Part shown: positions 6,306 through 42,535 of the stretch, piece by piece
How positions within the stretch are numbered: position 1 is the stretch's first letter
How the letters are laid out: each line of letters opens with the position of its first letter
Source: an uncultured Nitrosospira sp.
GTDB taxonomy: Bacteria > Nitrospirota > Nitrospiria > Nitrospirales > Nitrospiraceae
Reading direction: 5' to 3'
NCBI GenBank assembly: GCA_900696515.1
Contig: CAADGK010000039.1
Span: 62,001 to 126,000 of the forward strand
Length of the DNA stretch: 64,000 nucleotides
Notes under the pieces: generated by a model
Seen by the model: the letters and a program-made list of their open reading frames with translations, nothing else
Database searches by the model: none
Told to the model about the DNA's origin: nothing
Made by a program: the position numbers and the translations under genes

Positions 6306-7247
6306 ATGAAAATCTGCTCGCTCATCCCAGGTGCAACAGAGGTGATTGCCGCACTCGGCTTAGAGGATCAGCTTGTCGGCATCAGCCACGAATGTGACTT
6401 TCCCCCTTCGATTCGCCGAGTTCCCGTCATGATTGAACCATTGGTCGAGGCGGAACACACCACAAGCAGCGGAATTGACCAACGAGTGAAAGAACTGATC
6501 GAAACCGGACAACAGCTCTATCGACTCAAGGACGATGCCTTTCGTCACGCTCGACCCGATCTCATCCTGGCACAAGATCTCTGTCACGTCTGCTCAGTGA
6601 CTCCGGACCAACTCACCAGGGCCATGCACTCGCTTCCGCACCGACCCGAGCTGCTGATTCTCAGTCCAACGACCCTGCGGGATATGATTCATGACATCGA
6701 GCGGATAGCCAGCGCCGTTGGTGCTGTTTCAAAGGGAAACGCCCTTGCAGCCGATCTCCGCGGTCGATTGGAGAGAATCCGCCTCCGGACGGAGCAGGTG
6801 GCCGTCCGCCCGCGGGTGGTGTGCCTTGAATGGCTCGATCCTCTGTATGTCGCCGGCCATTGGGTTCCTGAAATGGTAGACTTAGCGGGAGGCCACAACG
6901 TCCTGGGATCTAAAGACCAGCCATCGTATCAGACGACATGGGACGAGGTCGATGCAGCCCAGCCCGACGTCATCATCGTCATGCCCTGTGGCTACTCAGT
7001 TGATCGGACCCTCAACGAACTGCGGCAGGTCGAGTCTCTTCAAGCCCTATGGCAACGGGCACAGACGTCCTGGTCGAACATCTATCTCGTCGATGCCGGC
7101 GCCTATTTCAGCCGGCCCGGCCCCAGGCTCATCGACGGAGTGGAGATCCTGGCCGCCATTTTCCATCCGGCTCAAGATCACCCGCTCGATCGCTCTCAGG
7201 CGATCAAACTTGAAACATCCGTACTCGCTGGAGACAGTGCGCCATGA
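6306..7247 (+). CDS. BtuF-like cobalamin/metallophore-binding protein without signal peptide
   Basis: 313 residues from the ATG at 6306 (MKICSLIPGATEVIAALG); the longer frame starts inside the HAD gene. This opening is typical of BtuF-type class III substrate-binding folds. Further family features are GISHECDFPP, the ARPDLILAQDLCHVCSV stretch, and the second lobe with ARPDVI-like AAQPDVIIVMPCGYSVDRT and AYFSRPGPRLIDGVEILA. There is no signal peptide or lipobox, so it is predicted cytoplasmic, unlike the transport BtuF. Several Cys (CDF, CHVC) could bind a ligand or metal. The gene overlaps hpnD by 4 bp (ATGA), so translation is coupled. Confidence 0.82.
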   Translation: MKICSLIPGATEVIAALGLEDQLVGISHECDFPPSIRRVPVMIEPLVEAEHTTSSGIDQRVKELIETGQQLYRLKDDAFRHARPDLILAQDLCHVCSVTPDQLTRAMHSLPHRPELLILSPTTLRDMIHDIERIASAVGAVSKGNALAADLRGRLERIRLRTEQVAVRPRVVCLEWLDPLYVAGHWVPEMVDLAGGHNVLGSKDQPSYQTTWDEVDAAQPDVIIVMPCGYSVDRTLNELRQVESLQALWQRAQTSWSNIYLVDAGAYFSRPGPRLIDGVEILAAIFHPAQDHPLDRSQAIKLETSVLAGDSAP

Positions 7248-9754: not shown

Positions 9755-9822
9755 TCGTCGGTGTCATTCTTTTTTCAGCGTTGACTTCACCCCAGTCCCC
9801 TCTCTATAAAATGTCTTCCACC

Positions 9823-9857
9823 TTTTCACATTTCACGTTTTACTTTTTACATATTTA
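9823..9857. repeat. 7-bp-period intergenic array (single arm)
   Basis: Four consecutive heptamers of the form NTTTCAC/NTTTTAC (9823-9850) and a decayed fifth lie just upstream of the uracil-DNA glycosylase start. They are A/T-rich compared with the flanks. They have the same period as the arrays at 12510, 14007, 30112 and 41147, but no inverted partner is obvious here. Confidence 0.6.
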
Positions 9858-9866
9858 GTCGATGCC

Positions 9867-11779: not shown

Positions 11780-12484
11780 TTAGCCGAGATGTTGCTTGAA
11801 GAAGCCCTTGGCCCGAACCCACGCGTCCTTTGCCGCTTCCGGCCGATACACCGATGGATCCGTGTCTCGGAAAAACGCATGAGGCGCACCGGGATAGGTC
11901 TTGATCTCTCCGGCTTTGTTGTACTTCTTCAACCCCGCCGCCAATCGCTGGACGTCCGCTTTCGTGATCCAACCGTCGTCCTCACCATAGAGGTACAGTA
12001 CCGGGCAGGCCAGATTCTGAATGGGTGTATCGGGATTCGGCACTTGGCCATAGAACGGCACGGCTGCTTTGATCTCGGCATTCACACAAGGCAGCATGAG
12101 GGCATAGGAACCACCCATGCAAAACCCCGTGATGCCAATCCTCGTCGCATCAACCTCCGGAACCGACTTGAGATAGGCTACCGTGGCATTCAGATCGGCG
12201 AGTCCATCCCCTTGTTTCAAGGTGTTCATAAGCCTACCGGCCTCACCGGCATCCGTGGTCAACGCATGCCCAAGGCGTGAATAGAGATCCGGAGCCATCG
12301 CCACGTAGCCTTCCGCCGCATAACGCCTCGCGATATCTTTTATGTGATCGGTGAGCCCCCACCATTCTTGGACAATGAGAACAGCCGGACGCTTGTCCTT
12401 CGTCTGCGGAGCCGCCATGAAGGCCTTCATGCCCACGATTCCGCTCTGATACTGAACGGTTGTTTCTCGAATCGATGCAGCCAT
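11780..12484 (-). CDS. Dienelactone hydrolase family protein
   Basis: 234-residue alpha/beta hydrolase. Visible are the early strand PAVLIVQEWWGLTDHIKDIARR (oxyanion side Glu), the nucleophile elbow GFCMGGSYAL with Cys instead of Ser near residue 117, the acid Asp in LYGEDDGWI near 167, and the catalytic His in YPGAPHAFF near 200. This Cys-Asp-His triad is the dienelactone-hydrolase type. The physiological substrate is unknown; most paralogs are not in chloroaromatic pathways. There is no signal peptide. The 5' side is separated from pmbA by a heptamer array (12510-12587). Confidence 0.93.
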   Translation of the reverse strand: MAASIRETTVQYQSGIVGMKAFMAAPQTKDKRPAVLIVQEWWGLTDHIKDIARRYAAEGYVAMAPDLYSRLGHALTTDAGEAGRLMNTLKQGDGLADLNATVAYLKSVPEVDATRIGITGFCMGGSYALMLPCVNAEIKAAVPFYGQVPNPDTPIQNLACPVLYLYGEDDGWITKADVQRLAAGLKKYNKAGEIKTYPGAPHAFFRDTDPSVYRPEAAKDAWVRAKGFFKQHLG

Positions 12485-12509
12485 GAGTCACCTCCCGCAC
12501 CAGAGTGCG

Positions 12510-12587
12510 AATTTGGAGTGGTAAGTTTTGAGTGGTGAATTGAGGACTGCTGAACTAACAACTCAAAATTCAAAACTCAAAACTGCA
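12510..12587. repeat. Inverted pair of 7-bp-period arrays
   Basis: The left arm (12510-12544) reads in heptamers around AGTGGTA/AGTTTTG/AATTGAG. The right arm (12553-12587) reads AACTAAC, AACTCAA, AATTCAA in steps of seven. The 18 bases at 12524-12541 pair with 12567-12584 at 16 of 18 positions, so a long hairpin is possible in either strand. It lies between the dienelactone hydrolase start and the pmbA stop. It lacks the GC stem and T-run of a normal terminator. Confidence 0.75.
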
Positions 12588-12603: not shown

Positions 12604-13989
12604 CTAATTGCCCGCCACCATCATCTCGGCGATCTTGACTGTCGGGCTTGCAATACGTCCACGGAACACGAGGTCATTCCCGATCACGTCGATGTCTTTC
12701 AGCATGTGCTTCAAATTTCCGGCAATGGTAATTTCTTCAACCGGGTAAGCCAGCTCTCCGTTCTCGATCCAGAAGCCGCAGGCTCCTCGCGAGTAATCTC
12801 CCGTCACCATATTAATGCCGAACCCGATCAACTCCGTCACAAAGAGGCCCTCTTTAATCGACCCAACAATCTCCTGCTGACTCTTCACTCCAGGGACCAG
12901 GTAAAAGTTGGTGGGACCAACGGAAGGACTCTCCCCCACGCTCCGTGAGGCGTTGCCTGTCGACGGCAACCCCAACTTTTTCCCCGAATAGGTATCGAGC
13001 AAATAGCTCTTTAACACCCCTCGCTCGACGATGGTATTTTTTCGTGTCGCCAGCCCCTCACCGTCAAACGGACGTGACCCAAGGCCGCCGACCATGCGGC
13101 CGTCATCATAGATGGTGATCAAATCGGAAGCGACAGTCTGTCCCAGCTGATCGAGGAGAAATGATGCACGTTTATAGAGTCCGTAGCCGGAGACCGCGCC
13201 GCACAAATTCGCCAGAAGGCTCCCGGCCGTCTCTTGATCGAACACCACCGGCACACGTTTCGTCGCCACCTTGCGCGCGCCCAATCGGCGAATCGCACGA
13301 CGCGCAGCTTCCTGTCCGATCGATTCCGCAGACGCCAATCGAGCAAACTTTCGCTGAACTTGATACCAGGCATCCCGCTGCATGCCACCGGTCGAAGACT
13401 CCGTCGCAATCGGGGACACGGACAGGGAAAAATTGGAGCTTTTATACGAGCCCACGAATCCATGACTATTGGCCAACACCACTCGCCCAGATGAGGAGTC
13501 GAATTCCGCACCTTCTGAATTGGTCACTCGTGAATCGGCCGCGAATGCAGCCGCCTCTCCGCGCTTGGCCCAATCAATCTGTGTATCCGTGTCGAGCACC
13601 GTGTCATCATACAGATCAAGATCAGGCTGCTCCGTGGCCATGTGACCGGCATCCGGCAATCCCGACACGTCATCCTCGACTACCGCACCGGCCAAGGTGC
13701 AGGTGTCGGCCACAAGCCGATCAAGAGAGGCTCGTGAGAAATCGGATGTGGACGTTGTGGCAGACCGCTTCCCGATGAAGACGCGTAAGCCGAGACGCTT
13801 CTCTCTCGCCTTGGTCAATCGGTCAACCATTCCGACTCGTACCTGAACCGAAAAGGTCTCCCCGTCGGCAACGACGATATCCGCTTCCGTCGCCCCGCAA
13901 GTTTTCGCTTGAGCCAACACATCGGCCGCCAACTGGGCATATCCGTTCGCGGTCATGGTCGGTTCCGTTTTTTGTTGTGCTTGAAGCAC
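12604..13989 (-). CDS. pmbA: PmbA/TldE family protein, partner of TldD
   Basis: 461 residues from a GTG at 13989 with a good GGGAG site; an ATG at 13956 (MTANGYAQL) is the alternative and lacks one. The protein shows the TldD/PmbA fold: N-terminal RVGMVDRLTKAREKRLGLRVF, central ARRAIRRLGARKVATKRVPVVFDQE, and the C-terminal GNASRSVGESPSVGPTNFYL and TGDYSRGACGFWIENGELAYPVEEITIAGN. It lacks the HExxxH metal motif, as TldE should. In E. coli, TldD and TldE form a heterodimeric metalloprotease that cleaves unfolded peptides. The neighbour tldD encodes the catalytic partner. Heptamer arrays flank this gene on both sides. Confidence 0.94.
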   Translation of the reverse strand: MLQAQQKTEPTMTANGYAQLAADVLAQAKTCGATEADIVVADGETFSVQVRVGMVDRLTKAREKRLGLRVFIGKRSATTSTSDFSRASLDRLVADTCTLAGAVVEDDVSGLPDAGHMATEQPDLDLYDDTVLDTDTQIDWAKRGEAAAFAADSRVTNSEGAEFDSSSGRVVLANSHGFVGSYKSSNFSLSVSPIATESSTGGMQRDAWYQVQRKFARLASAESIGQEAARRAIRRLGARKVATKRVPVVFDQETAGSLLANLCGAVSGYGLYKRASFLLDQLGQTVASDLITIYDDGRMVGGLGSRPFDGEGLATRKNTIVERGVLKSYLLDTYSGKKLGLPSTGNASRSVGESPSVGPTNFYLVPGVKSQQEIVGSIKEGLFVTELIGFGINMVTGDYSRGACGFWIENGELAYPVEEITIAGNLKHMLKDIDVIGNDLVFRGRIASPTVKIAEMMVAGN

Positions 13990-14006
13990 GTGCTCCCTTT
14001 CTCAGC

Positions 14007-14089
14007 CATTGGTCATCGATCAATGGTCATCGGGGATGGACTCCCCCTTCGTTTAGTCCGGCATTGACCAATGACTGATGACGATTGAC
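14007..14089. repeat. Inverted pair of 7-bp-period arrays between tldD and pmbA
   Basis: The left arm (14007-14034) has four heptamers of the type CATTGGT/CATCGAT. The right arm (14062-14089) has four heptamers ending in TGAC. Aligning the left arm with the reverse complement of the right gives about 19 of 26 matches, including the exact pair CATTGGTCA (14007-14015) and TGACCAATG (14065-14073). The spacer is 27 bp. The array fills almost the whole gap between the two genes. Confidence 0.78.
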
Positions 14090-14093
14090 GCTC

Positions 14094-15524
14094 TTAACGT
14101 TGTGTTCCGCCGACTGTAATTTCGTCCACCTTGATAGTCGGTAAGCCGACCCCGACCGGCACCGATTGGCCATCCTTCCCGCACGTACCAATGCCGTTAT
14201 CGAGCTTGAGATCATGCCCGACCATCGATACCTTCGTAAGAATCTCCGGCCCGTTCCCAATCAACGTGGCACCCTTCACCGGCTTGGTAATCTGGCCATC
14301 CTCGATGAGATAGGCTTCGCTGGCTGAAAACACGAATTTTCCGTTCGTAATATCGACCTGTCCTCCGCCGAAGGAGACGGCGTAGAGACCTTTTTTAACG
14401 GATCGAATGATGTCTTGAGGATCAGAGTCACCGGCCAACATGAACGTGTTCGTCATGCGCGGGAGCACCACGCTTTGATAATTTTCGCGTCGGCCATTCC
14501 CCGTCAGGGGGATCCCCATGAGACGTGCATTGAGCTTATCCGTAATATAGCCGCGGAGGATGCCTTTCTCGATGAGCGTCGTACAGCCGGTCGGCGTGCC
14601 TTCATCATCCATATTCAAGGAACCACGACGAAACGGAAGTGTGCCGTCATCCACGATCGTACAGACATCCGACGCGACACGTTTGCCGATCAGGCTTGAG
14701 AATGCCGATGTCTTCTTTCGATTGAAGTCGGCCTCAAGCCCATGCCCGATCGCTTCATGAAGCAGGATCCCGGGCCACCCACCGGCCAATACCACCGGCA
14801 TGACTCCAGCCGGGGCATCGACGGCGGATAAATTGAGAATCGCTTCCCGGGCCGCTTCCCGGGCATAGCGTAAATGCCGACCGTCTTCGCGATAATACGC
14901 GAAGGCGACTCGGCCGCCGCCGCCGAAACTGCCTACCTGGCGATTGTCTCGATCTTCAGCGATACAGGTAATCTGCAGACGTGACAGCGGCTGGATATCA
15001 CTCACCAGTGTGCCGTCGGAGGTCGCCACCACCACGACTTTGTATTCCGTATTAAACGAAGCCATCACGTTCTTGATGCGGGGATCATACCGCCTGGCTT
15101 CAGCATCGATTTCGTTCAAGAGCGCTACGCGCTCGGCTGTCGCCACCTCCGCCTTCGCCCGCTCGATCGGATAAAGATCACGGGTCGGGCGTTGCTGTGT
15201 AGGAACCGGAACCGTGGAATGCCCTTTGGGGGAATTGGCGATGTACCGGGCGGTATCGGCGGCGATTTCAAGATCCCGCTTCGTCAACTCATCCGAATAG
15301 GCAAACCCCGTCTTTTCCCCTGCGGTGGCTCGAACCCCAACCCCTTGCGACACACTCTTGGCCGCCCGTTTGACGATGCCCTCTTCCATCGAGACTGATT
15401 CTGACGTGCGGGATTCAAAATAGAGATCCGCGTACTCAACGTCTCGGACCTTCACCCGATCGAGTGCCTGTTGCGCCTCGATCTCCGTGACACCGAACGT
15501 CGTCAGTTGAACCGGCTCCGGCAT
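14094..15524 (-). CDS. tldD: Metalloprotease TldD
   Basis: Catalytic subunit of the TldD/TldE protease. Of 476 residues, the zinc motif HEAIGH (His256, Glu257, His261) lies in GILLHEAIGHGLEAD, followed by KKTSAFSSLIGKRVASD and the conserved DDGTLPFRRGSLNMDDEGTP. C-terminal features are LTGNGRRENYQSVVLPRMTNT, FGGGQVDITNGKFVFS and GNGPEIL. The N-terminal third has the RTSESVSMEEGIVKRA strand region typical of the family. It is cytoplasmic. The gene is upstream of pmbA on the minus strand with about 100 bp between, mostly repeat, and divergent from uppS. Confidence 0.96.
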   Translation of the reverse strand: MPEPVQLTTFGVTEIEAQQALDRVKVRDVEYADLYFESRTSESVSMEEGIVKRAAKSVSQGVGVRATAGEKTGFAYSDELTKRDLEIAADTARYIANSPKGHSTVPVPTQQRPTRDLYPIERAKAEVATAERVALLNEIDAEARRYDPRIKNVMASFNTEYKVVVVATSDGTLVSDIQPLSRLQITCIAEDRDNRQVGSFGGGGRVAFAYYREDGRHLRYAREAAREAILNLSAVDAPAGVMPVVLAGGWPGILLHEAIGHGLEADFNRKKTSAFSSLIGKRVASDVCTIVDDGTLPFRRGSLNMDDEGTPTGCTTLIEKGILRGYITDKLNARLMGIPLTGNGRRENYQSVVLPRMTNTFMLAGDSDPQDIIRSVKKGLYAVSFGGGQVDITNGKFVFSASEAYLIEDGQITKPVKGATLIGNGPEILTKVSMVGHDLKLDNGIGTCGKDGQSVPVGVGLPTIKVDEITVGGTQR

Positions 15525-16526: not shown

Positions 16527-17417
16527 GTGGGATACCCGCTCGCTACAGATGCCATCCTTCACCATTCGAGATTTGTGACCACTTCACCTGCACGACCACG
16601 ACAATTTGATCTCCGGCGTCTCTATACCGCCGTAGTACTGATTCCCGCCGTCTACATCATCATTGTCCACCTGGCCCCATGGGCCCTCACCCTCCTCCTG
16701 ATCGCCGTCGGGTCGATCGCGCTGCTTGAACTGTATCGTCTGAGTTTCCAGTCACGGTTGAATCATGTGCTCGTCGGCGTCGGGTCGGCTCTCTTCGTCC
16801 TGACCATTGCCCGATCACACCTGTCACTTCCTCTCCCAGAGCTGCTTCTCGGGGGTGCACTCGCGTTGGTCCTGGCCGCTATGGCTGTTGGCATATCGTC
16901 GGCGTACCGGTGGAAGGACCCGCTCCTCGCCCTATTCGGTATTCTGTACGTAGGCCTCCCCTTGAGCACGGTCGTATCGGCTCGGTCCTTACCCTCGGGA
17001 GCATTCCTGGTCTTGTTCCTGGCGGTCGTCACCTGGGCATCGGACTCCGGGGCCTACTATGCCGGCACCTTGTGGGGCAAACACCCGCTCATGCCTTCCA
17101 TCAGCCCAAAGAAAACGTATGAAGGCCTACTCGGTGGGCTTATTGGAGCCATTGCGGCCGCCCTCCTGGCACAGATGTGGTTTGCTTCAGAACTCTCATG
17201 GACTGACGCCGTGGCACTTGGTATTCTCCTGACTCTTACAGGCCTGGTCGGCGACCTTTTTGAATCGGCGATCAAGCGCCGGGCAGGCGTCAAAGACTCG
17301 GGAGGAATTCTACCGGGGCATGGCGGGATGCTCGACCGGATCGATAGTCTCTTGTTCACAGCTCCCACTTTTTACTACTATGTCGCGTACGTTCGAGGCT
17401 TGTTGCCGCCTCTATAG
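16527..17417 (+). CDS. cdsA: Phosphatidate cytidylyltransferase
   Basis: Integral membrane enzyme converting phosphatidic acid and CTP to CDP-diacylglycerol for phospholipid synthesis. The GTG start at 16527 gives 296 residues; a GTG at 16575 (VTTSPARP) just before the conserved core is a good alternative. There are about seven to eight hydrophobic helices. The CDP-alcohol signature is seen as SPKKTYEGLLGGLIGA near 195 and GDLFESAIKRRAGVKDSGGILPGHGGMLDRIDSL near 240 with conserved Asp residues. The gap to uppS is 10 bp. Confidence 0.95.
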   Translation: MGYPLATDAILHHSRFVTTSPARPRQFDLRRLYTAVVLIPAVYIIIVHLAPWALTLLLIAVGSIALLELYRLSFQSRLNHVLVGVGSALFVLTIARSHLSLPLPELLLGGALALVLAAMAVGISSAYRWKDPLLALFGILYVGLPLSTVVSARSLPSGAFLVLFLAVVTWASDSGAYYAGTLWGKHPLMPSISPKKTYEGLLGGLIGAIAAALLAQMWFASELSWTDAVALGILLTLTGLVGDLFESAIKRRAGVKDSGGILPGHGGMLDRIDSLLFTAPTFYYYVAYVRGLLPPL

Positions 17418-18672: not shown

Positions 18673-20064
18673 ATGACGTCTGTACTTTCCTGGTCGCCCG
18701 ATACTGTGTGGATGCTGCTCCAGAAGGCCTGGTGGTTTCTTGTAGTCCTTGGCGTCCTGGTCGCCTTCCATGAGCTCGGCCATTTTCTGGCCGCACGATG
18801 GGTGGGAGTGAAGGTCCTCAAGTTTTCCATCGGCTTCGGCCCCAAACTGTTCGGCAGGCAGGTCGGCGAAACCGAGTACCTTGTTTCTGCCGTCCCGCTT
18901 GGCGGCTATGTCAAATTGTTCGGAGAAGACGAGGCGGAGGCCACGACCTCTGATGACCGCAGACGATCATTCGCTCATCAGGGACTCTGGGGAAAAGTCC
19001 TGATCGTTGCAGCCGGTCCTGGATTTAACTTCATTCTTGCTTACCTGATCTTTGCCGGGTGGCTGTCGACCGGTACGCCCTTGTTTGTCCCGACCTTTCG
19101 TGACCTGAGTGCCGACATCGAAGCGCTGGTTCCCGACTCCCCCGCGGCGAAGGCAGGGATGGAGATAGGCGACCGGGTCGTCAAGATGAACGGGAAGGAC
19201 ATTTCGACCAAGACCGAGCTCTTGGATCTCGTCGCGAAAAGCAAGGGACAACCCGTCCTACTCGAAGTCCGCCGCGAGGGGCAATTAAAAACCATCACCG
19301 TGACCCCCGTCAAGATCACCGGAGACGGCGCGCACGACGACGAACCGCTGTACACCATCGGTGTAGAAGAAACGCCTCCGCTGGTCACCTCGGTGATGCA
19401 TGGATCACCTGCCGCAGCGGCCGGAGTCCTGCCCGGGGATCGCGTCGCCGCGATCGACGGGCATACCATCTATACCTGGGCACAAATGACGACGCAGGTC
19501 AGAGAACATCCGCTCACACCGCTCAGTTTTGAGGTCCTTCGGGAAGGAACCAGGACAACGCTGACCGTCACGCCCACTGGTGAAAAGGTCACCATCAACG
19601 GGCAAACCGCCGAAGTCGGTAAGATCGGCATCTCAGGCCCCGGCCGCTCGCTGATGCACTCCAACAACCCCGCGGAAGCCGTCTACCATGGTCTGGAAGC
19701 GACGTGGGGATGGACCGAACTGACCGCGGTTGGACTCTACAAAATGGTAGTCGGCGACATTTCGAGCAAGAACATCGGCGGGCCGCTGACCATTGCCAAT
19801 ATTTCCGGGGAAGCCGCATCTCAGGGTGCCTCCAGCGTGGTCTTCTTGATCGCCATCCTGAGTATCAACCTCGGTGTGCTCAACCTGCTCCCGATTCCCA
19901 TTCTCGACGGAGGGCACTTGCTCTTTTTCTTGATTGAAGGCATCCTGCGTAAGCCGCTCGGCGAACGGCAACGGGAGGTCGCCCAGCAGGTCGGATTGGT
20001 ACTCTTGGTCGGTGTGATGATTTTTGCCTTCTGGAACGATCTTGAACGCATCTTCTCCCGCTAG
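18673..20064 (+). CDS. rseP: RIP metalloprotease RseP (site-2 protease)
   Basis: Intramembrane zinc protease that cleaves membrane-tethered anti-sigma factors and remnant signal peptides. The HExxH motif HELGH is at residues 33-37 in the first helix (VAFHELGHFLAARWVG). Two periplasmic PDZ domains follow (roughly 125-205 and 215-300; PDSPAAKAGMEIGDRVVKMNG and HGSPAAAAGVLPGDRVAAIDG). The last helices hold the LDG metal ligand motif in NLLPIPILDGGHLLFFLIEG. Length 463 matches the two-PDZ RseP type. Confidence 0.96.
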   Translation: MTSVLSWSPDTVWMLLQKAWWFLVVLGVLVAFHELGHFLAARWVGVKVLKFSIGFGPKLFGRQVGETEYLVSAVPLGGYVKLFGEDEAEATTSDDRRRSFAHQGLWGKVLIVAAGPGFNFILAYLIFAGWLSTGTPLFVPTFRDLSADIEALVPDSPAAKAGMEIGDRVVKMNGKDISTKTELLDLVAKSKGQPVLLEVRREGQLKTITVTPVKITGDGAHDDEPLYTIGVEETPPLVTSVMHGSPAAAAGVLPGDRVAAIDGHTIYTWAQMTTQVREHPLTPLSFEVLREGTRTTLTVTPTGEKVTINGQTAEVGKIGISGPGRSLMHSNNPAEAVYHGLEATWGWTELTAVGLYKMVVGDISSKNIGGPLTIANISGEAASQGASSVVFLIAILSINLGVLNLLPIPILDGGHLLFFLIEGILRKPLGERQREVAQQVGLVLLVGVMIFAFWNDLERIFSR

Positions 20065-37400: not shown

Positions 37401-37739
37401 TTACCAGCGATCGCGCTTTCCACCGCCTCCACTGCGACCACCGCCTCCACCGAATCCACCACGCCCGCCGCCGCCACCACCGGTCCGCGGCTCCTGGGGA
37501 CGTGCTTCATTGACTGTAAGAGTCCGGCCACCCATTTCTGACCCGTTGAGTGCCGTGATGGCAGCTTGAGCTTCGGCATCAGACGACATTTCCACGAAGC
37601 CGAATCCCCGGGATTGCCCGGTGAACTTATCCGTAATGATGCGCGCCGAGGCGACTGCACCATGCGCCGCGAATAAGTCACTCAATTGCTGCTCGGTCGC
37701 CGAATAGGGCAACCCACCGACATAAATCTTCGAACCCAT
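37401..37739 (-). CDS. RNA-binding protein with one RRM and a Gly-rich tail
   Basis: 112 residues from the ATG at 37739, chosen for the strong AAAGGAGG site. RNP2 is KIYVGGLPY at the N-terminus and RNP1 is RGFGFVEM near 45, both intact with Tyr and Phe stacking residues. After the domain (about 80 residues) comes a short Gly/Arg tail (GGGGGRSGGGG) like cyanobacterial and proteobacterial Rbp proteins. It probably binds mRNA, for example as a cold-inducible chaperone. It ends at the terminator 37345-37375. It is monocistronic by appearance. Confidence 0.95.
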   Translation of the reverse strand: MGSKIYVGGLPYSATEQQLSDLFAAHGAVASARIITDKFTGQSRGFGFVEMSSDAEAQAAITALNGSEMGGRTLTVNEARPQEPRTGGGGGGRGGFGGGGGRSGGGGKRDRW

Positions 37740-41146: not shown

Positions 41147-41225
41147 AGTCATTGGTCATCGATCACTCATCACTGGCAACGAAGAAACTCTCTACTCCAT
41201 TGACCAGTAACCAGTGACCAGTGCC
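41147..41225. repeat. Inverted pair of 7-bp-period arrays between mobB and moeA
   Basis: The left arm (41147-41174) has heptamers AGTCATT, GGTCATC, GATCACT and CATCACT. The right arm (41198-41225) has four heptamers of form CANTNAC/CAGTGCC. The arms are inverted around about 23 bp. An 18-nt stretch pairs at 13 of 18 positions, with the others mostly transition differences. The array sits just before the mobB start codon and is the third such composite in the window. Confidence 0.78.
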
Positions 41226-41236
41226 TCCTTGTTTCC

Positions 41237-42535
41237 CTAACAACAGGAGAGTCGTTGTTCACAGGAATCTTGACGCTCCGTGGTGGTCGGCCACGCTTCC
41301 CCGCTCAATAGTTGAACCGTGACTTCGTCGCCAGGATTCAGCCGATCGATTTCAAGCGGCACATCGATGAGACAGTTGGCTTTGACCATTGAGGTAAGAA
41401 TACCGGAGCCTTGGTCGCCGGTCGTCCGAACTTTGAAGGCACCCTCTTCTCGTGTCAGAATCCCTCGCAGGAAATGCCGCCGGTCAGTGCGTTTTGAAAA
41501 AGTCTCCTGAAAGATGGCCTGCAGCACCGGCCGTCCATAGGTCCGGCAGCCGCTCATCTTCTGCAGTGCCGGCCGTACGAGCTGCTCGAACGTCACCATG
41601 GAGGACACGGGATTACCGGGAAGTCCGAAAGCCAATTTGCCTTGAATCAAACCAAATGCCAAAGGCTGCCCGGGTCTGATCGCAAGTTTCCAAAAATTCA
41701 TCTCGGCCCCGAGCTCGCGGAAGACCGCTTTGGTGAAATCATAGTCACCCATCGACACTCCGCCGGACAGGACCAGGATATCGGCATTCAACCCCTGCGA
41801 AATCTTTTCCTTGAGGGCGGTCGGTGTGTCGCGGGCAATGCCGAGCAAGAGCGGAACCCCTCCGGCTTCCTGCACGGCCGCGGCTATCCCATAGCTATTC
41901 GAGTTGATGATCTTCTCGTCACTGAACCGTTCATCCAAATCGGCCAATTCATCGCCGGTCGACAGAATCGCCACGCGAGGTCGCTGATAAGCAAACACCA
42001 AAGACTTGGCAAGAATCGCGAGCATCCCCGCTTCACCGGGACGAATTCTCGTCCCCTGCGCGATCATGCAGTCGCCTTTTTTGACGTCCTCACCTTGCGG
42101 TCTGATATTGGCACCCTTCGGTTCAGGCTTTAACACGCGTACGGACGTCGGTGTGGGTTCGGTGTCTTCGACTTTGAGCACCGTATCCGCTCCTCGGGGC
42201 ATCGGCGCGCCGGTCATGATCCGGATCGCCTGACCAGGGCCGACCGTCTTCGTCGGCATCGTCCCGGCGGGAACATCTTCGATAATCGAGAGGGTCACCG
42301 GCTTCTGAATGGCATGCTCCTGCTTGATATCTTCCCATCTCACCGCAAACCCATCCATGGCTGAATTGTCCCACGGAGGATTGTCTCGCTCCGCAACGAT
42401 GTGTTCACCCAGCACACGACCCAAGGCATCCAGGATCGAGACCTTTTCAACTCCCAACACTGGCGTTGCATCCAACACAATCCGTTGCGCCTCATGCAGT
42501 TGGGTCAATCCGTTCATGGCATCGGCGGCTTTCAC
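41237..42535 (-). CDS. moeA: Molybdopterin molybdotransferase MoeA
   Basis: Inserts molybdate into adenylylated molybdopterin. The 432 residues show DNPPWDNSAMDGFAVRWED near 65, the GQAIRIMTGAPMPRGADTVLKVED stretch near 105, PQGEDVKKGDCM near 150, VAILSTGDELAD near 195, NSNSYGIAA, and LSGGVSMGDYDFTKAVF near 260, then GLPGNPVSSMVTFEQLVRP near 310. The C-terminal domain IV ends in an odd Cys-rich tail (QDSCEQRLSCC). It overlaps mrp by 4 bp, so the two genes are coupled. Confidence 0.96.
   Translation of the reverse strand: MKAADAMNGLTQLHEAQRIVLDATPVLGVEKVSILDALGRVLGEHIVAERDNPPWDNSAMDGFAVRWEDIKQEHAIQKPVTLSIIEDVPAGTMPTKTVGPGQAIRIMTGAPMPRGADTVLKVEDTEPTPTSVRVLKPEPKGANIRPQGEDVKKGDCMIAQGTRIRPGEAGMLAILAKSLVFAYQRPRVAILSTGDELADLDERFSDEKIINSNSYGIAAAVQEAGGVPLLLGIARDTPTALKEKISQGLNADILVLSGGVSMGDYDFTKAVFRELGAEMNFWKLAIRPGQPLAFGLIQGKLAFGLPGNPVSSMVTFEQLVRPALQKMSGCRTYGRPVLQAIFQETFSKRTDRRHFLRGILTREEGAFKVRTTGDQGSGILTSMVKANCLIDVPLEIDRLNPGDEVTVQLLSGEAWPTTTERQDSCEQRLSCC

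Follow-up and report, generated by a model that had tools for sequence, protein, structure and literature searches.

Facing heptamer arrays as a multi-word family of stop-proximal intergenic elements in a Nitrospira genome, with counterparts in other bacterial phyla

Introduction

Between tldD and pmbA of an uncultured Nitrosospira sp. (GTDB family Nitrospiraceae; assembly GCA_900696515.1) two short arrays with a 7-bp step face each other, which raises the question of whether this arrangement belongs to a family of repeats, and what such a family might do. The window analysed here is the whole 64,000-nt stretch of contig CAADGK010000039.1 (positions 62,001 to 126,000), and positions below refer to it. 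A first-pass annotation had proposed an unnamed intergenic family in which the period and the inverted plan are conserved rather than one sequence. For nif of Anabaena azollae, the title of a 1995 paper by Jackman and Mulligan speaks of 'highly variable but structured intergenic regions'.

Results

Three elements in the window

All three facing-array elements of the first-pass annotation are present in the window, each between genes on the minus strand; the gene names (tldD, pmbA, moeA, mobB and the dienelactone hydrolase gene, DLH) were taken from that annotation and from sequence motifs. The tldD-pmbA element spans 14002-14090, with the pmbA start at about 13989 and the tldD stop at 14094, both on the minus strand. 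Its left arm (14002..14033; CATTGGT CATCGAT CAATGGT CATCG) is of the GTCANNN type, its loop (14034..14061) is unique within the genome sample and mostly kept in the relatives G006 and G011, and its right arm (14062..14090; CATTGAC CAATGAC TGATGAC GATTGAC G) lies 3 nt from the tldD stop codon. The best ungapped arms, 14007-14029 and 14065-14087, are 78% complementary with 35 nt in between. The period of 7 is real, although to call the step strict was slightly too strong, the left arm of this element repeating best at a distance of 14 (12 nt, 92%). The second element (12509-12584) lies between pmbA and DLH (DLH start at 12484 and pmbA stop at 12604, both on the minus strand), with a left arm of TGAGTTT type (12509..12541) and a right arm reading AACTAAC AACTCAA AATTCAA AACTCAA AACT (12553..12584). 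The third (41148-41223), between moeA and mobB, has a left arm with a GTCANNN word that overlaps the mobB start region on the minus strand (41148..41180), and a right arm 13 nt behind the moeA stop codon (41197..41223; CCATTGA CCAGTAA CCAGTGA CCAGTG). Each element had been thought to use its own heptamers, but those at 14007 and 41147 belong to one word family (GTCANNN / NNNTGAC), and the element at 12510 alone differs (TGAGTTT / AAACTCA).

A lone period-7 array of TTTCACA occurs at 9824..9855 in the 9755-9866 gap, where no facing partner was found, and a search with the Rfam 15 covariance models at the gathering score gave no match within the window. An imperfect 9/18/27-bp tandem repeat (TCCACCGCC) at 37419-37478 probably lies inside a coding region. 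In the moeA-mobB gap of the window (41148-41240, minus strand) and of relatives, a conserved AAGGAG stands, read in sense orientation, directly before the upstream arm, and the far arm stops 3-4 nt short of the likely mobB ATG. The folded hairpin might here place this Shine-Dalgarno-like site beside the start codon (hairpin-bridged initiation). Such a layout is not general, a Shine-Dalgarno-like site being located downstream instead in 10 of 21 elements.

Enrichment over chance

All rates were obtained from a sample of 864 kb (the window together with 800 kb taken from long contigs of the genome), in which genes were called with a simple purpose-made codon model, giving 535 intergenic regions. 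A genome scan no better than shuffled intergenic DNA had been named beforehand as the result that would refute the proposed family. The scan returned 37 intergenic period-7 segments, where first-order shuffles of these regions averaged 1.4, so that the proposal stands. Among periods 4-25, strong intergenic enrichment was confined to 7 and its multiple 14, and the density of period-7 segments was 28.8 per 100 kb in intergenic versus 2.2 per 100 kb in coding DNA. When two arrays sharing one word were scored as a pair, out of 42, scores of at least 33 were reached by 27 facing and 6 same-direction pairs and by none in shuffles; periods 6 and 8 gave next to no pairs by this scoring. At a score of at least 35, facing pairs in the whole 864 kb numbered 0, 0, 23, 1 and 0 for periods 5, 6, 7, 8 and 9, respectively. 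The zero-false-positive score (at least 34) retained 30 elements in the 864 kb, which extrapolates to roughly 160 in the whole genome of 4.585 Mb. The pattern GTCANNNGTCA-N16-46-TGACNNNTGAC had 20 matches in this genome, overlaps among them, and its reversed control none. No facing pair at period 7 was detected in 200 kb of E. coli K-12. Two further complete Nitrospira genomes contained just 2 elements each in 200 kb, implying that element density varies widely.

Anatomy and words

Each element is a pair of facing arrays, every arm holding 3-5 heptamers (about 30 nt), with a loop between them that is particular to its locus; the median loop length is 25 nt in this genome and 9 nt for the cross-phylum elements. 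A single word serves both arms, 4-5 of its letters being fixed and 2-3 free. Within the GTCA family of this genome, conservation is 92-94% at the four core letters and 48-76% at the remaining three. We counted 20 canonical words among the 30 elements, so the 7-bp pitch and the inverted plan stay constant while the words change. The similarity between units (of 7) is 4.96 for adjacent and 5.01 for non-adjacent units within an arm and 4.98 between arms, as if every unit, whichever its arm, had been drawn independently from a single word profile.

No loop was common to different loci among 45 elements of this genome (G000) and 26 of G006, where only orthologous loops match, which rejects whole-element copying and with it membership of a MITE family, whose copies are alike throughout, interior included. 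A longer dispersed repeat in the same genome has facing GTTTCAG heptamers, a conserved short loop (GTTGTCCGGAAAC) and common flanks (L057, about 11900; L074, about 7130-7200 and about 17020-17110; L084, about 19857-19927); it looks like a MITE-like family that absorbed or grew from a heptamer element.

Placement by genes and stop codons

The 28 classified elements comprise 23 in co-directional, 4 in convergent and 1 in divergent gaps, against a background of 299 : 65 : 70. By itself the co-directional excess is modest; the shortage of elements in divergent gaps is more evident. Arrays of this genome tend to begin no more than a few nt from a stop codon. Of the 131 array edges in the cross-phylum set, 67 fall between -5 and +15 nt relative to the stop of a long ORF, compared with about 11% of random points, and several arrays begin with the G of a TAG stop. 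The gene for the ATP synthase gamma subunit, atpG (its identity read from the downstream beta-subunit start, with letters translated by eye), has an element on both sides, in the order atpA, element, atpG, element, atpD. The 10 nt after the arm contain 2.8 T on average, with six or more T in 1 of 21 elements. Given their presence in co-directional gaps and inside the ATP-synthase operon, the elements are not simple terminators, and the transcription-ending role suggested in the first-pass annotation is not upheld; the mRNA-stabilising role suggested beside it is possible.

Folding and constraint

The suggested capacity to form hairpins is borne out by folding: the median z-scores were -2.9/-3.3 in this genome and -6.3/-6.4 in the cross-phylum set, versus -0.1 for control gaps, and loops alone gave z values of about 0. 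Divergence of the arms amounts to 0.28-0.78 of fourfold-site divergence in the adjacent gene, and in the four alignments with the greatest divergence the arms differ less than the loops (e.g. 0.14 vs 0.35; 0.19 vs 0.53). This slower change may be taken as moderate evidence of constraint, aligning repeats favouring low values. The free letters do not pair in register across the arms (difference of -0.06 ± 0.05 of 7 in this genome and +0.06 ± 0.03 in the cross-phylum set), compensatory changes are few (2, 0, 5 and 0, against 94-166 kept pairs) and no preference for folding of the sense strand was detected (7 of 21 elements in this genome; 26 of 55 across phyla), although an RNA function might predict one. 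Together with the equal likeness of units, these results speak against an RNA-only view and show that constraint sits at the level of the word, on every unit of both arms, and is not classical base-pair covariation. RNA-level selection through covariation or sense-strand G-U pairs thus found no support.

Turnover between related species

In the pmbA-DLH gap, the genome studied here and species whose PmbA is 95-97% identical to its own carry three words, each in both arms: TGAGTTT in this genome, AGTGCTG in G048 and G039, and GCTATAG in G006, G043 and G011. The AtpG proteins of G000 and G011 are 100% identical and the atpA-atpG elements of these genomes are different (ATCAGC vs ACGAACG words). 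A third allele (CTCAGTC) recurs, loop included, in G039, G048 and G053 and in species further removed; in a few others the gap is short and free of any element. In atpG-atpD as in atpA-atpG, the words that differ between species are matched in both arms. When G000 and G006 were aligned (flanks 77-96% identical), about half of the sites were kept and half replaced from the stop codon onward. Because alternative alleles are common to distant species, the exchange of old alleles by recombination or lineage sorting is likelier than the making of new words; en-bloc word switching as a fresh event is weakened, atpA-atpG alleles with homologous loops being present in more distant species. Among 91 indels longer than 3 nt between alleles at least 85% identical, 21 measure exactly 7 nt, the commonest length, and 27 are multiples of 7. 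To this extent the idea that the arrays are seeds for slippage holds, although neighbouring units are not more alike than others. A chimera test at pmbA-DLH gave arm pairs from the same species a score of 33.9 and cross-species pairs 32.1 of 42, a weak test because most species share one word in this gap.

Range across genomes and phyla

Of 39 relatives, 19 contained GTCANNNGTCA-N16-46-TGACNNNTGAC, and all of these belong to the same genus; 16 relatives placed in different families of the order had no match, and the control stood at 0 throughout. Across the phylum the pattern was present in 45 of 198 genomes. The reversed control outnumbered it in a few Nitrospirota genomes, which indicates that other words are in use there. 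This reversed control (CAGTNNNCAGT...ACTGNNNACTG) is strongly enriched in Anaerolineae CHL1 (G269; 152 matches) and, within the Nitrospirota, has 16 matches each in G099 and G202 and 9 in G130; it is another word family of the same facing plan.

A stricter GTCANNN pattern gave at least 59 loci in the whole collection, against about 0.45 expected by chance, as estimated from uniform base composition. These loci include Verrucomicrobiota, Acidobacteriota, Planctomycetota, Cyanobacteriota, Bacteroidota, Chloroflexota, Nitrospinota, Nitrospirota, Campylobacterota, Desulfuromonadales, Armatimonadota, Gemmatimonadota, Actinomycetota and Alphaproteobacteria, as well as single MAG contigs labelled Parcubacteria and Euryarchaeota, which may be mis-binned. 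Whole-genome counts, in which overlapping windows of one element are scored separately, reached 108 in Nostoc, 38 in Leptolyngbyaceae and Anaerolineae, 33 in Blastocatellia, 27 in Mucilaginibacter, 23 in Nitrospinae, 19 in Akkermansiaceae and 15 in an alphaproteobacterium. The 403 kb around the loci, with the matched element excluded, contained 35 segments at period 7, 24 at period 14 and 11 at period 8, with many other words (e.g. GGTGTTG, TAGTTGC, AAAATCC). Nostoc NMS4 has both the GTCATTG word and the facing plan. The facing heptamer plan, partly with the same word, is thus present in bacteria of about ten or more phyla and looks like a general genome feature.

Nostoc NMS4 (L209-L214, L296-L303) and Anaerolineae CHL1 (L215-L220, L304-L309) carry about 13 facing period-7 pairs per 100 kb. 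Same-direction pairs are also many in these genomes (25 and 14, respectively), and their load of heptamer pairs is several-fold above that of the Nitrospira genome studied here.

Discussion

Relation to known repeats

As multicopy, non-coding, tandem degenerate 7-bp units, the elements parallel the cyanobacterial STRR heptamers, as had been proposed, and resemble the STRR hairpins of hupS-hupL and hoxW in their 7-bp units, their location in co-directional gaps and their variability between relatives (PMC2670836). They differ from these in the many words within one genome, the systematically facing arrays and the measured stop proximity; word replacement at orthologous gaps and the cross-phylum recurrence of one word are also shown here. 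Two facing arrays of one word, close together, are found here as in Xanthomonas, which has 70-75 facing pairs per genome, mostly in co-directional gaps and nearer the upstream stop (PMC4692102). The Xanthomonas GGGAATC and Nostoc GGGGA(C/T)T heptamers also have fixed and free positions (GGGANTN; PMC4692102). Those repeats, however, are a single G-rich word read as a G-quadruplex, whereas here the words depend on the locus and mostly lack a G-run (GGGA/GGGGA), as in GTCANNN, TGAGTNN, GCNNATG and TTCAGGT, with a few words of GTGAGGG type carrying one. The heptanucleotide elements of Geobacter metallireducens (GGGACCG; MTYCTGA, drawn as looped strands; PMC2700814) are likewise intergenic, multicopy sets of four or five tandem heptamers, but they are read as regulator sites, have one BLAST-aligned consensus per family and occur also inside genes. 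The TAACTGA repeats of Beggiatoaceae (PMC4679880) are intergenic heptamers common to distant phyla too; they form direct arrays toward start codons, with one inverted case and one word.

REP/BIME sequences and their RAYT transposases (PMC3733652, PMC12306157) offer a further likeness, being dispersed, stop-proximal hairpins of paired units. REP/BIME units have a conserved stem, a GTAG/CGTC tag and no 7-bp repetition, whereas the heptamer elements lack a tag, a shared loop and a linked transposase, and none of the three Y1_Tnp genes in the genome is flanked by heptamer arrays, so that membership is rejected. One Y1 transposase of RAYT size (162 aa; G000 C39:42768-43130, L272), about 19 kb outside the window, has palindromes of its own (gtagcaagctac; flanks ccccgcagcaagctgcgggg / ccccgtagcaagctacgggg) and represents a separate REP/RAYT system in the same genome.

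Facing pairs (Xanthomonas), hairpins (cyanobacteria) and heptamer elements (Geobacter, Beggiatoaceae) were therefore already known; new here are multi-word, facing, stop-proximal, allele-swapped elements spread over many phyla. Neither a description in Nitrospirota nor GTCATTGGTCATTG was found in the literature searched, an absence that weighs little, most subscription papers lying outside its coverage.

Possible function and alternatives

The reading that we favour, with confidence no better than evenly balanced as to function, is that these are dispersed, transcribed, stop-proximal intercistronic hairpins of the STRR-hairpin kind, which act on the upstream gene by adjusting its termination and mRNA stability. 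Transcribed as part of the operon, each element would form an imperfect hairpin immediately after the stop codon. There it could delay or alter ribosome release at termination and protect the end of the upstream mRNA against 3'-to-5' decay, and in this way determine the proportions of neighbouring gene products, an effect described for stop-proximal REPs. The sequence of the elements would be free to change while both arms keep one word, whole alternative alleles, element-free ones included, would pass between species, and units would be gained or lost seven bases at a time. REPs less than 16 nt from a stop codon lower translation of the upstream gene (PMC12306157), and for the 7-bp-repeat hairpins between hupS and hupL transcript stabilisation or translational coupling has been proposed (PMC2670836). 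By analogy, the elements would be tolerated at these places and probably serve to tune expression between cistrons.

A hairpin function does not explain why the pitch is 7 bp, why the words match and why the units are independent; these features point to a process at the DNA level that builds or homogenises the arrays. Such a process could by itself account for the elements as repeats without host function, their 7-nt units being added or copied in place on both sides by an enzyme or repair process, tolerated only behind stops and spread by recombination of the flanking genes. We regard this as possible, though tentative: it fits units drawn independently from one profile, the lack of folding bias in the sense strand, loops unique to each locus and hence no whole-element copying, the recurrence of the single word GTCATTG in many phyla and the patchy presence among relatives, but it sits badly with arms whose rate of change is below that of fourfold sites and, for the most part, below that of loops, a target duplication could not be shown, and there is no candidate enzyme, the Y1 transposases of the genome being without flanking heptamer arrays. 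A more specific and rather doubtful conjecture is that a single, undescribed process operating across phyla (an enzyme or a repair pathway), which moves in 7-nt steps and draws on a restricted set of words, writes units on both flanks behind stop codons with 4-5 letters faithful and 2-3 free, the hairpins being a by-product. Plain microsatellite replication slippage with a coincidental facing arrangement would explain the 7-nt indels between alleles, but as a sole cause it is contradicted by adjacent units that are no more alike than others, by facing pairs that far outnumber same-direction ones and by the one word common to both arms, which leaves it scarcely credible.

The sharp core of the GTCA family in this genome and the fixed pitch, as of multimeric sites, would suit binding sites of a protein that reads the heptamer core on DNA or RNA, and TAACTGA arrays have been proposed as sites of translational regulators (PMC4679880). 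We nevertheless find such sites unlikely, since the many words per genome and the different words at one gene pair between species would need one protein per word or a protein blind to sequence. Six-frame stop cassettes, in which a pitch coprime to 3 lets facing, stop-bearing words close all frames of both strands, have in their favour that all three frames are closed in 65-79% of elements versus 24-33% in shuffles, and that a stop triplet on either strand is contained in 100% (this genome) and 92% (cross-phylum) of words versus 64-67% in letter shuffles. The effect, however, is not significant per word family (0.76 vs 0.59 ± 0.14), the far arm holds stops more often in co-directional gaps (13 vs 7), Xanthomonas GGGAATC has no stop and pitches of 5, 8 or 10 would serve equally well, so that we consider this improbable. 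Rho-independent terminators would be expected as inverted repeats behind stop codons, and the elements are such repeats, but a GC-rich stem with a T tract at a transcript end was not found; the paucity of T after the arm, a single weak consensus match at 14007 on the strand opposite to the genes and the location in co-directional gaps make this reading very improbable, and for the elements inside the ATP-synthase operon it is contradicted.

Earlier heptamer reports were piecemeal (Calothrix, Nostoc, Xanthomonas, Beggiatoa, Geobacter), each being explained by its own word. The many words per genome, the constant pitch and facing plan, the swapped but matched words and the presence of one word in about ten or more phyla argue for one general cause. 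Two questions are thereby made testable: where the pitch of 7 originates, and what effect a stop-proximal hairpin with a free word has on essential operons such as that of ATP synthase.
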